This document shows, piece by piece, positions 7,387-12,060 of a stretch of DNA of 64,000 nt; the first letter of the stretch is position 1, and the number at the start of each line of letters is the position of its first letter. The notes below the pieces were generated by a model that worked only from the letters and a program-made list of their open reading frames with translations, made no database searches and was not told where the DNA came from. The stretch is from assembly GCA_026993785.1 (NCBI GenBank), contig JALWRZ010000003.1, positions 124,001 through 188,000 of the forward strand, read 5' to 3'. The DNA is from DHVE2 group archaeon. GTDB taxonomy: Archaea > Thermoplasmatota > Thermoplasmata > Thermoplasmatales > Aciduliprofundaceae. Position numbers and translations under genes: made by a program.

Positions 7387-7408
7387 GGTTGGGTGTAAAG
7401 ATGAGGAG

Positions 7409-7417
7409 ATATAAAAA
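7409..7417 (-). promoter_or_regulatory. TATA box of valS
   Basis: On the minus strand this reads TTTTTATAT, centred about 27 bases upstream of the valS ATG. That distance equals the usual archaeal TATA-to-start-of-transcription spacing, so the mRNA is expected to begin at or next to the start codon. Confidence 0.65.
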
Positions 7418-7436
7418 AATTAGTAAAATTCAGGGG

Positions 7437-8636
7437 TCAAACTTCTCGTAGAATTACAGTAATCCCGCTTATTTCCTTCAATAGCTGTATATATTTTTTC
7501 AGCATCCCTGTATCTGAATAACTATATGCCTGATAAAAAATAGCCACTATTATTTTGTTTATATCTTCTCGATATTCTCTTACCCTTTGAACAGTTTCTC
7601 TAAGATGAGCTCTAGAAGGATTATATTTAAGCTCAATACCGATATCATTTTTTATGTCGTATATATCAATTCTATCTCCCGAGGGCAATTTGTATTGAGA
7701 AATAAAGTGTGTATCAATATTCCTACAATTAAAAAATCCTGACAAATAGGCTAATAATTGCTTTTCTATATCGGATTCATTGGAATTCCATTTTAGAATA
7801 GGTATGAATTTATGTGATATCAAATCTACTAAAATATTGAACACCTCTTTTGAAGATATTGCCTTTGAAACTTTCTTATCCATGGATTTATGAATGATAT
7901 GTGAGGCCAAATCATCAATTAAAACACTTCTATCGATTTTCTTTGGATTTTTCTCTTTCCACGGGTAAATATTTAATTTTTCGGAAAGATCTACCAAGTC
8001 TTCAAAATACATCACAGATAACACATCTTTAGGAGTTAATCCGTATGCCATCATATTCTTGGCCAGCTCTTTCTTGGTGCCGGAAACTTTTAGTCCATAA
8101 ACTCGACAAATATGCTGAAGATGATATTTACTCAAATATTTACTGAGGAACTCTTCAAATTCAACATTTTGGGGAGGCTCCAAAAGGGTAAGCATATCTA
8201 GTAAATCACTCCAAATGTCTTCTGGAATTACCCAATAAGTTTTAGTATCTTTCTTAACCTTAAAAACAATACCATAAGATTCTAAGATTTTCAACCAAGA
8301 ATTTACTTTATTTCCATATTTTTTTCCTTAATTTTTTAATTTCCCAGATGCCAAAATCACACGAAGGATCTCCCTCAGCAAGAGCCTTAATAAACTCTTT
8401 GAAGTCCTGAGGTAAATAGATTAAAAATTGAGTTAAACTGTTCTTAGGTATCTCTACAATCCAATAATCATTAGGAAAATAGGTTCTAATCTTGTTCACC
8501 AACTCCTCTGGAGATAATTTTGAGAAGTTTTCAACTTCCAAATTTTTGCAATATTCACTAGCCTTCTCTTAGGTAATTCTCTCAAAAATTCTATCATAGA
8601 CTTATTTTGTAGTGGGCATTTCTCAGCTTTCATCAT
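7437..8636 (-). pseudogene. SAP / winged-helix / PD-(D/E)XK nuclease gene split by two homopolymer frameshifts
   Basis: Three frames join into one 399-codon reading frame from an ATG at 8636 if one A is added to the A5 run (minus strand) at 8543-8547 and one removed from the A7 run at 8319-8325. The joined protein has a SAP/Rho-N-like helix pair at residues 26-50, a winged-helix-like region at 80-140, a SAP-type motif 'YGLKVSGTKKELAKNMMAYG' at 180-199, and a restriction-endonuclease fold with D324 and E335-L-K337 ('IDIYDIKNDIGIELKYN'). This predicts a DNA-binding nuclease. The two separate pieces (8541-8308 and 8294-7437, the latter from TTG) are open without correction. It sits 26 bases behind the TOPRIM-like gene. 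Whether the shifts are read errors, decay or programmed slippage is undecided. Confidence 0.7.
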
Positions 8637-8662
8637 TTTTTAGTAGTGGGCATAAGATATAT

Positions 8663-9157
8663 TTATTTTTTGCTAGAAAAGAATGACTCAAGGAGGTCCT
8701 TTAGAATTTTTATTCTCTCACTTCTATTCTCCAAATCTCCTAAGAGCTTTTCAAATTTTCGAAGATGGATATTTATGTTCTGGTGCAGTCTATTTCCATC
8801 TGAAGGAAGACCATAATATTCTATTGATATTTTTAACTCCTTGGTAGAGGCAATTATCCACTCCTCTAGCCTGGGTGAAAGAATTATCACTAGATTATCT
8901 CTTCTCTCATCTCTTAAAACCTTGATGCCAAATTTGTGATACCTATCCAGATTTTGAGATGCGTTAATTAATCTTTTAATATAACTTGGCTGGGGACTCT
9001 CTGGATCCTCATCAATGAGGCCTATATTTCCTGTAGATTTTTCCAGTTTTCTGCACACGTTGCCCTTAGAACCCGCATGCCTGATGTATTTCTTTGGAAT
9101 TCCTAATTTCCTCACTAAGAGTTCATCAGGGTTGCATTCCACGAAAATGTAGGACAT
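8663..9157 (-). CDS. TOPRIM-like partner protein of the AAA ATPase
   Basis: A 164-residue protein with an acidic layout suggestive of a TOPRIM fold: Glu7 on the first strand ('YIFVEC'), then 'NIGLIDEDP' with D49 and D51 after the third strand. TOPRIM domains bind metal and cut nucleic acid, as in OLD-family and RloB-type proteins. I start at ATG 9157, with GGGGGAG 5-8 bases upstream overlapping the ATPase stop; a GTG at 9163 also fits. The pair 'SMC-like ATPase then small TOPRIM protein' looks like an OLD/Gabija-A nuclease split into two chains (inference). Base composition is clearly more AT-rich than valS. Fold call moderate. Confidence 0.55.
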   Translation of the reverse strand: MSYIFVECNPDELLVRKLGIPKKYIRHAGSKGNVCRKLEKSTGNIGLIDEDPESPQPSYIKRLINASQNLDRYHKFGIKVLRDERRDNLVIILSPRLEEWIIASTKELKISIEYYGLPSDGNRLHQNINIHLRKFEKLLGDLENRSERIKILKDLLESFFSSKK

Positions 9158-9159
9158 TA

Positions 9160-10140
9160 TCACTCCCCCAAGAACAGATCTACGTTGAAAAATATATCGG
9201 ATCCTAAATCTAGTATCTCTTCCATAGCCTCTTTATCCAGCAATTTTACCTTGGTTTGATGGTCTGCGAAGTACACTACAAAAACATTGATATCCTGTAA
9301 AGGTGTCTTTTCGATTACTGAAATCAAGAAGTAGGGGTTGTGGGTTGAGATGAAATATTGATTATTGCTATTATCCAAACCTATTCTCTCCGCCAGATAT
9401 TTGGTGTAGTAGGGGAACGCATGCGCCTCAGGTTCTTCAAGCACAAGCACCGAATCTTTGTTTGATTCCATAGCAATTAGATAGAATATTGTTCTTTGAA
9501 GGGTATCTGATATTACAGAATAAGGATAGCTTATGAGTACATCCTCTAGGAATTTCACTACTTCTATCTTATTTTCCTGAGGTTTCAATGCAAGTCTCAA
9601 ACCATAATCTGATAAAATCTCTGCCACGAGAGATTTCAAATTCCTATGTGTTAATAACACCGATAGGAGATTTTCACCTGAAGGAAGTAGGTAATCCGGC
9701 TTTTTAGAAGGAAATTGATGCAATATTCTGAATCTGTAAAATTTAAATCGTTGGAGACTCTCTCTTAATTTTGGAAGATTGATGCTCTTTATTATCTCTC
9801 CTGAAAAATCCAATTTCATGGTGTCGGATAATTTCTCATTTCTATCCTCTGCGGTTAGTAGAAATTGAGAATCACGGAACTCCAGCACATATCTTATGGC
9901 TCCTGCATATATCTCTACCTTTTCTTCAAGGTTATTATCAAAAAATAGATTTGTTATGTTCTCAAATCTCACAAAATCTTTCAATTTTCCTCCGTAGCCC
10001 CCTGCAGAGAGAAATCCTATTGCCTCTAGGAGATTGGACTTACCCACATTGGGTTTCCCTATGAAAATATTTACCCTTTTACACTCGATGTTCAGATTCC
10101 TGATCGACTTAAAATTTTGAATTTTAAGGGTTTTAATCAT
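9160..10140 (-). CDS. SMC/OLD-like AAA ATPase of a putative defence operon
   Basis: About 326 residues. It begins with the typical 'IKTLKIQNFKSIRNLNI' strand, Walker A 'GKPNVGKSN' near residue 28, and late in the chain 'VLVLEEPEAHAFP' (Walker B with the ABC-type EPE/H) followed by 'FISTHNPYFL' (H-loop). This is the AAA_15/AAA_21 type found in OLD-like nucleases and RloA/AbiL-like defence ATPases. The TATA box at 10156-10165 puts the transcription start near 10135, favouring the ATG at 10140 over the GTG at 10149. It overlaps the TOPRIM-like gene and heads the three-gene operon. The low-GC base use suggests acquisition by transfer. Confidence 0.8.
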   Translation of the reverse strand: MIKTLKIQNFKSIRNLNIECKRVNIFIGKPNVGKSNLLEAIGFLSAGGYGGKLKDFVRFENITNLFFDNNLEEKVEIYAGAIRYVLEFRDSQFLLTAEDRNEKLSDTMKLDFSGEIIKSINLPKLRESLQRFKFYRFRILHQFPSKKPDYLLPSGENLLSVLLTHRNLKSLVAEILSDYGLRLALKPQENKIEVVKFLEDVLISYPYSVISDTLQRTIFYLIAMESNKDSVLVLEEPEAHAFPYYTKYLAERIGLDNSNNQYFISTHNPYFLISVIEKTPLQDINVFVVYFADHQTKVKLLDKEAMEEILDLGSDIFFNVDLFLGE

Positions 10141-10155
10141 AAGAGACACCGGAAG

Positions 10156-10165
10156 TATATAAATA
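10156..10165 (-). promoter_or_regulatory. TATA box of the ATPase/TOPRIM/nuclease operon
   Basis: Minus-strand reading TATTTATATA, centred about 21-26 bases before the ATG at 10140. It supports a near-leaderless message starting the three-gene unit that runs to 7437. Confidence 0.55.
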
Positions 10166-10262
10166 TCTCAAAATATAAAGATTGCTATTCAGAAATATTC
10201 CAGAAGTAAGCAGTTCTCTTTGTGATAGCAGTCTAGCTCATACCCCGTCCTTAAAAAATAAA

Positions 10263-10571
10263 CTAAGTTATAAAAATCCCTGCTATTACAGCTATCCACC
10301 ACAGCTCCAGGAAAAGGAAATTGGATGCAGGAAGGGAAAAAATTAGCCAGAGCACAAGAAAAGAATAGGCTGCGAGGGTAAAAATCACATGAAGGGCTAT
10401 CGCTGCGGTGTTCTTTCTCTCTCCAAATTTCATCCACCCGGTGGGAAGTGGAAGCCAGTCGAAGAATGCGGCAATTATTGCGAGATACCATATATTAAAT
10501 ACAACTGCAGGGATGAAAAATAGTCCGGCCAGAGCTACGCAGAGCAAAGTTTTGGTTCTGTTTTTCATCAT
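10263..10571 (-). CDS. Small multi-pass membrane protein
   Basis: About 102 residues from ATG 10571 (MMKNRTKTLLC) with roughly three to four hydrophobic helices, an internal amphipathic 'DWLPLPTGWMKFGERKN' loop and no soluble domain. The frame is open further upstream to 10712, but that part would overlap the start of the divergent AAA+ gene and its promoter, so I take the shorter form. Family not recognised. It lies between the defence-like operon and the AAA+ gene and could belong to either or neither. Confidence 0.55.
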   Translation of the reverse strand: MMKNRTKTLLCVALAGLFFIPAVVFNIWYLAIIAAFFDWLPLPTGWMKFGERKNTAAIALHVIFTLAAYSFLVLWLIFSLPASNFLFLELWWIAVIAGIFIT

Positions 10572-10613
10572 GAAATAATAAGTACCCCATCCTATAGAAG
10601 TTTGTCGCCAATA

Positions 10614-10623
10614 TTTTAATATT
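10614..10623 (+). promoter_or_regulatory. TATA box of the orphan AAA+ gene
   Basis: TTTTAATATT about 30 bases before the ATG at 10648, inside a nearly palindromic AATATTTTAATATT run. The spacing fits a leaderless start. Confidence 0.45.
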
Positions 10624-10647
10624 CCTCCATACTGTAAGGGTAATAGA

Positions 10648-12060
10648 ATGAAGAGAAAAAGATATATCAGAATTGCAAAGATACCCGAGATTCCGAAGGA
10701 GCAGCTTAACAACTGGATGAGATATGTTATTCAAAACACAGAAGATGTGGCCCAGCTTGAAGCTCTGATATATCTGCAGAAGATGCAGCGTGCCTGGACA
10801 CAGAGAAATGCTAAGGAATGGCTCATAGCCAAAACCGGAAGCTACGGGATCTTGGGAAGATTGAAAAACACGGGGCTTATGAAAGAGGTAGGGGAAGAAG
10901 GCGGAGCAAAGCTCTATTCTCTGACGGCCCTGCAGGATATAGAGAAATGGCTAAGAGAATATCGGGGCGGTAAAATCCGGCTGACCACTGAAGAGGCAAT
11001 GCGGGAGTACCAGGATGTTGTTCTTCAGCTCCGTAGTGAGTATGAGTTCTTTATAAAAAATGTTAAAGAGGAAGATATTGAGATCTGGGTCAAGGAGATA
11101 AGTTCCGTAGAGGATATTGTGCATTATACTAAGAGTATTATGGGCGAGATGCTTTATATGGATGCACTTCTCCCTATCATTCAGCAGTATTCCATGGCCA
11201 ATATGGACATATACTCTTCTGCCAATCTAGAGAGAAAGATAAATCAAACGGGATTCTCGCTGGCATATTTTGGAGAGCCGGGCACAGGTAAGACCTTTGC
11301 CACCGATGATCTGCTTCGAGGCAAGGAAGAGAAGGGAGTTCCTCCACATGGAATCATAGGACGTCTCCGCTATGCTCAGGGAATGACGCCGAAAATGTTT
11401 ATCGCAATTTTAGAGGCATATCAAGATTATCCTGTGGACTGGGTTATTCCTGAGTTTCGCGATTTTTTCAGTTATCGGGGTATGGTGGAAAAGCTAAAAC
11501 TTGTAATGGAGCGCAGGGAGGTTAAAGATGAGACCCGCAACGGAATAATTGGACCCTATAAAGTTACGAGTTTTTTCATAGTTAATTATAACACAGAAAT
11601 CACAAGGGGGCGATGGAAAAACACCATGGGAGACCCCAATTTCAGCGCCGTTGAAGACAGAATGATATGCAAACTATTTCTCAATACTTCACAGCGAAGA
11701 AGGCTTATATGGGAAAATATGAAGAGAATTGCCAGCGGCAAAGTAGATTACTATCTTGCTGATACCTTGAGGAGACATATAACGTACACCTATCATCTTC
11801 TCCAAGAGAAAAGGCCTAAGGTGGTAATTGAGGAGGAGGACTTCATAAAGCTGGGTGATGAGATAGCGGAGGAGATAGATAGAAGAGAGGCTCCTGTGAG
11901 TCTCAGAATCGTTGATAGGGCACTGCAGATAGCCGCCTCCGCATCTTTGGTAAGCTACCTTAAAAATAGAGAGGATGAAATCTGGGTGGACAAAGAAAGT
12001 CTAAATCTGGCAAGAGACTTTGTTCTGCAGGAAATAGATACCCGGGCGTTAAAGGCATGA
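10648..12060 (+). CDS. Orphan AAA+ ATPase with N-terminal helical/HTH-like region
   Basis: This 470-residue protein has an N-terminal helical domain (about 1-110, with a winged-helix-like 'GSYGILGRLKNTGLMKEVGEE.GAKLYSL'), then Walker A 'GEPGTGKT' near residue 214, a sensor-1-like 'FFIVNYNTEI' and an 'AVEDRMICK' arginine-finger-like segment. The expected Walker B acidic pair is seen only as 'VDWVIPEF', so catalysis may be altered. MoxR-like or replication-type ATPases in plasmids and viruses look similar, but no subfamily is recognised. It stands alone between a membrane gene and a GC-rich noncoding patch beside tRNA-Ala, a plausible place for an integrated element (inference). Confidence 0.75.
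   Translation: MKRKRYIRIAKIPEIPKEQLNNWMRYVIQNTEDVAQLEALIYLQKMQRAWTQRNAKEWLIAKTGSYGILGRLKNTGLMKEVGEEGGAKLYSLTALQDIEKWLREYRGGKIRLTTEEAMREYQDVVLQLRSEYEFFIKNVKEEDIEIWVKEISSVEDIVHYTKSIMGEMLYMDALLPIIQQYSMANMDIYSSANLERKINQTGFSLAYFGEPGTGKTFATDDLLRGKEEKGVPPHGIIGRLRYAQGMTPKMFIAILEAYQDYPVDWVIPEFRDFFSYRGMVEKLKLVMERREVKDETRNGIIGPYKVTSFFIVNYNTEITRGRWKNTMGDPNFSAVEDRMICKLFLNTSQRRRLIWENMKRIASGKVDYYLADTLRRHITYTYHLLQEKRPKVVIEEEDFIKLGDEIAEEIDRREAPVSLRIVDRALQIAASASLVSYLKNREDEIWVDKESLNLARDFVLQEIDTRALKA

Follow-up and report, generated by a model that had tools for sequence, protein, structure and literature searches.

A two-gene ATPase–TOPRIM cassette of a Thermoplasmatota archaeon as a candidate split OLD-type system resembling PARIS

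In the window, i.e., the whole stretch of 64,000 nucleotides analysed from the 1.66-Mb genome of a Thermoplasmatota archaeon presumably related closely to Aciduliprofundum, the minus strand between positions 7437 and 10140 holds three genes, as an earlier note on this DNA had stated and as is borne out by the gene calls. The first two of them, with a probability of roughly 0.7, constitute a mobile, split OLD-type ATPase–TOPRIM cassette that would work like the PARIS system, most likely in conflict with viruses; our best reading assigns it to an archaeal branch that is so far uncatalogued. Judging from gene recurrence, the unit is composed of genes 1 and 2 and not of all three genes.

An ATPase gene and a TOPRIM-like gene

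Gene 1 (9160..10140, minus strand, ATG at 10140) codes for an ABC/AAA_15-type ATPase of 326 amino acids and is separated by two bases from gene 2 (8663..9157, minus strand, ATG at 9157), to which a TOPRIM-fold protein of 164 amino acids is assigned; a gap of 26 nt leads to gene 3 (7437..8636, minus strand). The GC content of the three genes amounts to 0.31–0.37, compared with 0.48 for valS and 0.45 for the window, so that they are, as previously remarked, AT-richer than valS. A TATA-like TTTATATA, i.e., a pattern match whose support is positional, is situated 16–23 nt upstream of the gene 1 ATG (10156..10163, minus strand). This pattern is not enriched in the window, with eight occurrences compared with 7.35 expected by chance, and gene 3 possesses an AT-rich TATA-like stretch of its own (8657-8665), about 25 nt upstream of its ATG at 8636; thus, a single TATA box serving all three genes, as proposed in the earlier note, is not supported.

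Gene 1 contains the Walker A (GKPNVGKS), Walker B (VLVLEEPEAH) and H-loop (STHNP) motifs of an OLD-family ATPase, which, together with a C-loop-like SDTLQR, are invariant across three copies. Its Pfam matches to AAA_15 (1.7e-16) and AAA_21 (1.3e-11), both over the curated cut-offs, agree with the AAA_15/OLD-type assignment that had been made from Walker A, EPEAH and STHN. Among the PADLOC profiles, AriA gives the best score (8.5e-20), followed by GajA (3.5e-19), HEC-01A (3.4e-16) and AbiLi (3.8e-14); the scores are about equal for AriA, GajA, HEC-01A, NsnB and AbiLi. In a sequence search, the N-terminus resembles RecF and Rad50. The AlphaFold model of gene 1, built on a three-row alignment, was poor (pLDDT 44) and was left unused. 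Based on these motif and profile data, gene 1 is a full OLD-type ABC ATPase without a nuclease domain of its own, and we propose that it is the sensor/regulator subunit of the ATPase–TOPRIM pair.

At the curated level, gene 2 was matched by no family of Pfam, NCBIfam, PADLOC or PHROGs, and a sequence search gave no match among PDB sequences. Its AlphaFold2 model, based on eight sequences, is confident (pLDDT 91.9); Foldseek alone returned no hit for it at E<=0.001, after which 996 solved chains were re-aligned to the model with VIA-align. The best 13 rows obtained in this way are exclusively OLD/GajA chains, aligned in their TOPRIM region (Z 9.5-7.0), followed by Pyrococcus PH0156 (Z 6.8), MoaB/MogA (6.5) and retron Eco2 (6.3); the first clearly unrelated fold appears at Z 6.5, compared with 9.5 at the top. 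Because the Foldseek result is non-significant and a Z near 9 is moderate, the evidence from individual residues matters. In 12 diverse gene 2 members, E7, C8, D11, H27, K31, D49, D51, Q56, P95, L97 and E98 are invariant, and E7, D11, D49, D51 and E98 correspond to the acidic ones among the metal ligands of the OLD proteins from Thermus scotoductus (E377, D381, D431, D433, S478, E480) and B. pseudomallei (E400, E404, D455, D457, T506, E508) (PMC7049728, PMC6755086). The i/i+4 and DxD spacings are shared with both reference proteins, and 49 residues lie between the first D of DxD and the last E, as in the Thermus OLD; in the 12-sequence alignment of the gene 2 family, conservation does not extend to the Ser/Thr of the OLD metal-B site. 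Hence, by prediction, the OLD two-metal acidic set (E, E/D at i+4, DxD, E) is present in gene 2. The length of exactly 164 amino acids and the E7 and D49-x-D51 pattern reported in the earlier note are found as described, and the structure search, in which Foldseek alone gave no significant hit, came out in favour of the suggested fold. On the basis of the VIA-align ranking and the residue conservation, gene 2 is taken to be a TOPRIM-fold protein, and it is predicted to act as a two-metal nuclease effector with E7, D11, D49, D51 and E98 as ligands.

Recurrence and probable transfer of the pair

The pair is found adjacent, in the order ATPase followed by TOPRIM, at 18 loci, comprising the window and 17 others. 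Carriers include Thermoplasmatota—among them two genomes of the window's own genus—Thermococci, Chloroflexota, the unplaced bacterium AUK276 and the Geoglobus ahangari pleomorphic virus 1. A neighbourhood survey, which had been suggested as a check on the three-gene arrangement, thus confirmed the recurrence of genes 1 and 2 but not that of the trio; a homologue of gene 3 lies beside the pair at none of the 17 other loci (search at E<=1e-3; same-genus contigs and the virus record by listing). Nor was co-occurrence with defence islands, likewise proposed as a check, seen for most of the other copies, which have housekeeping genes on either side and no recognisable defence island.

At E<=0.001, gene 2 has matches, a few of them weak, in 7/292 Thermoplasmatota genomes, 4/301 genomes of the Chloroflexota sample and 6/115 genomes of the phylum containing the Thermococci, and the gene 2 of another Thermoplasmatota family shares 27-29% identity with that of the window. 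In the contig scan, a single gene 2 sequence gave no matches, whereas an alignment query detected eight loci; in the plasmid set and the viral contig set, no match to gene 2 was obtained. The virus-borne pair corresponds to gp15-gp16 of the Geoglobus ahangari pleomorphic virus 1 provirus (BK065157.1) and is located between two HxlR-type winged-helix genes, which are possible regulators (L053:2662-4816). Three Thermococci loci (L041, L043 and L109) carry the pair at one common site (L109:4504-7874), which is bordered by an amidohydrolase gene on one side and a macro-domain-like gene on the other. Decayed pairs are present in the Chloroflexota sample: G348 carries an internal stop, the ATPase frame of G499 is split, and G537 retains a remnant, namely a short ORF (L061:1453-1863) in which the initial ATPase residues run into the middle part of the TOPRIM protein and which is apparently left over from a deletion.

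Within the genus, valS is 88% identical, while the ATPase shows 57-61% identity among same-genus copies, 62-65% to Thermococci and 36-37% to a same-phylum family (f22); on account of these values, the same-genus copies look independently acquired. In Chloroflexota and Thermococci, too, the pair is more AT-rich than the genes around it. In the window, the genes occupy a variable interval (7387..10647) that extends from valS to a conserved AAA gene (10648-12060) and whose cargo differs among relatives. The latter gene codes for a 470-aa P-loop protein adjoining valS which is kept at 71-77% identity across the family and for which all Pfam matches are sub-threshold. In one relative (G009, L082), the interval is empty (~100 bp); in a second (G007, L081:3943-4956), it holds one 337-aa orphan gene with a GC content of 0.35 and no Pfam match; in a third (G011, L079:164-3110), it contains genes for an N6_N4 methylase and a D12 adenine methylase along with a winged-helix gene and a 214-aa ORF lacking any Pfam match, likely constituting a restriction-modification block. 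From these three states, the interval can be described as a variable site with restriction-modification-like cargo. Composition, phylogeny and the empty site taken together, the pair looks transferred, in line with the earlier suggestion of transfer, and the comparison with strains lacking the insert, which had been recommended there, yielded the empty site beside valS in G009.

The pair among OLD-family and related two-gene systems

In PARIS, the class 4 OLD system, ATPase and TOPRIM are encoded by neighbouring genes; AriA keeps AriB sequestered, and once a phage protein has triggered its release, AriB cleaves tRNA (PMC12409363, PMC12796447). Adjacent, separate ATPase and TOPRIM genes are likewise present at the 18 pair loci. 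AriA is the best-scoring PADLOC model for gene 1, but GajA and others score similarly, and none of the 12 gene 2 members matched AriB in PADLOC at E<=1 or had a curated-level Pfam match. Since the AriA match is non-specific and an AriB match is lacking in gene 2, the pair was not filed as PARIS. It further differs in the small size of gene 2 and in its occurrence in archaea, Chloroflexota and an archaeal virus, whereas class 4 (split) OLD systems are reported from bacteria only in a recent OLD survey; the same survey found a role in the cell cycle, and not in defence, for Cran1, an OLD protein of archaea (PMC12796447).

The nearest TOPRIM fold is that of class 1 OLD proteins (P2 Old and the Thermus scotoductus OLD), which have the same acidic metal ligands as gene 2 and, like the pair, occur alone in varied neighbourhoods. 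In OLD classes 1-3, however, ATPase and TOPRIM reside on one polypeptide, whereas they are encoded by two genes at all 18 loci. That the OLD architecture is distributed over two chains here, as the earlier note had surmised, is supported by the strict co-conservation of the two genes, by the fold predicted for gene 2 and by the agreement of its metal-binding residues with those of OLD proteins. The class 2 protein GajA of Gabija is similar in both ATPase and TOPRIM in sequence and fold searches; no UvrD-like GajB helicase lies directly beside the pair in the window or at the other loci, and given this and the two-chain layout, Gabija was rejected as an assignment. HEC-01 and AbiL of PADLOC also consist of an ATPase and a partner gene, and most of gene 1 is covered by its matches to HEC-01A and AbiLi; yet, HEC-01B was matched by only one of the 12 gene 2 members (E 0.032), while for AbiLii, no match was found in the gene 2 family. 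A genome search with HEC-01B was silent, but as its controls were silent as well, it carries no information.

Gene 3, alternative readings and proposed mode of action

From its frames, relatives and Pfam matches, gene 3 corresponds to a SAP / winged-helix / SAP / PD-(D/E)XK protein, which in the window is spread over three frames (8496-8639, 8308-8568 and 7437-8327) with breaks near 8545 and 8315, across both of which continuous relatives align. As both breaks are at or beside short A/T runs, which make the two causes indistinguishable, the frame shifts may be true mutations or assembly errors. Matches to SAP_new25 (7.5e-8) and Tox-REase-9 (8.3e-8), both over cut-offs, come from the downstream 285-aa stretch alone, and the C-terminal E-D-ExK pattern is kept in relatives; hence, the nuclease-like end and the SAP motifs noted earlier were recovered, but not a single reading frame. 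Gene 3 has both Pfam matches in common with SAP-containing PD-(D/E)XK proteins and differs from these in additional winged-helix-like and SAP-like regions and in being broken here. A phylum search gave matches in 71/292 genomes, mostly short SAP stretches in long proteins which do not define the family. One relative with SAP/SAP/ExK composition (G011, L032:1874-5592) is arranged divergently next to HerA and NurA, and another (G014, L030) adjoins a helicase of the Lhr type; these surroundings hint that the gene 3 family has a part in DNA repair.

The same strand, the short intergenic gap and the AT-richness of all three genes would be in keeping with a defence operon of three genes, the SAP/wHTH/PD-(D/E)XK protein serving as a second nuclease alongside the ATPase–TOPRIM pair. 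We consider this very improbable, given that gene 3 is missing at the 17 other pair loci, that its relatives stand elsewhere, by HerA-NurA or an Lhr-type helicase, and that it is frame-broken twice in the window. For these reasons, it was rejected as a member of the system, and the idea of a third nuclease joined to a split OLD was not sustained; from the sequence comparisons, gene 3 lies beside the pair as a gene in its own right, which is broken at present.

That the pair itself serves DNA repair or replication, in the manner of RecF/RecR or of Cran1, and not defence is unlikely, albeit the least so of the alternatives. TOPRIM also occurs in RecR, and this, the N-terminal likeness of gene 1 to RecF and Rad50 and the archaeal precedent of Cran1—by analogy with which a non-defence role is possible—speak for it; however, the spread of gene 2 is patchy, and the pair is transferred, virus-borne and sometimes decayed. 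RecR TOPRIM domains are not known to act as nucleases, while gene 2 keeps all acidic OLD metal ligands. Slightly less probable still is a toxin-antitoxin-like addiction module of mobile elements, in which the ATPase would silence a toxic TOPRIM protein and which would be kept by selfishness and not by antiviral benefit. The two-gene layout, the virus-borne copy between two HxlR-type regulators and the stand-alone insertion amid housekeeping genes would fit such a module, but it explains an ABC sensor ATPase no better than PARIS-type defence does, and its mechanism overlaps with that of the PARIS-type reading.

A PARIS-like cassette is, thus, the reading that we prefer. A sensor ATPase controlling a two-metal nuclease is suggested by the split layout shared with PARIS and by the intact predicted metal ligands, and it is by analogy that we infer complex formation, triggering, nuclease activity, substrate and antiviral role. 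In this scheme, the ATPase would form a complex in which the TOPRIM protein is kept inactive. On a viral or foreign-DNA signal, the ATPase would change, and the TOPRIM protein would then cleave nucleic acid, either DNA or tRNA, by means of two Mg ions, so that the invader or the infected cell is stopped. The cassette travels among archaea and bacteria and is also carried by at least one virus of archaea, for which it would serve to exclude competing viruses. A defence role is plausible, considering the kinship to OLD, the virus-borne copy and the DNA methyltransferases at the orthologous site. A bolder proposal, which we offer tentatively and on balance lean against, is that the pair represents the first archaeal class of split OLD systems. 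This class would combine a novel family of TOPRIM effectors with an ATPase of their own, would have arisen independently of bacterial PARIS, and would be employed against competing viruses both by host cells and by a pleomorphic virus of a hyperthermophile.

Little is known about non-CRISPR immunity of thermophilic archaea, and the predicted nuclease subunit encoded by gene 2 is missing from family libraries. The pair is of moderate interest because it occurs in archaea and in a virus and because its effector family is uncatalogued; being compact and transferable, it offers a small system in which the use of PARIS-like immunity by archaea, and the target of the cleavage, can be tested.
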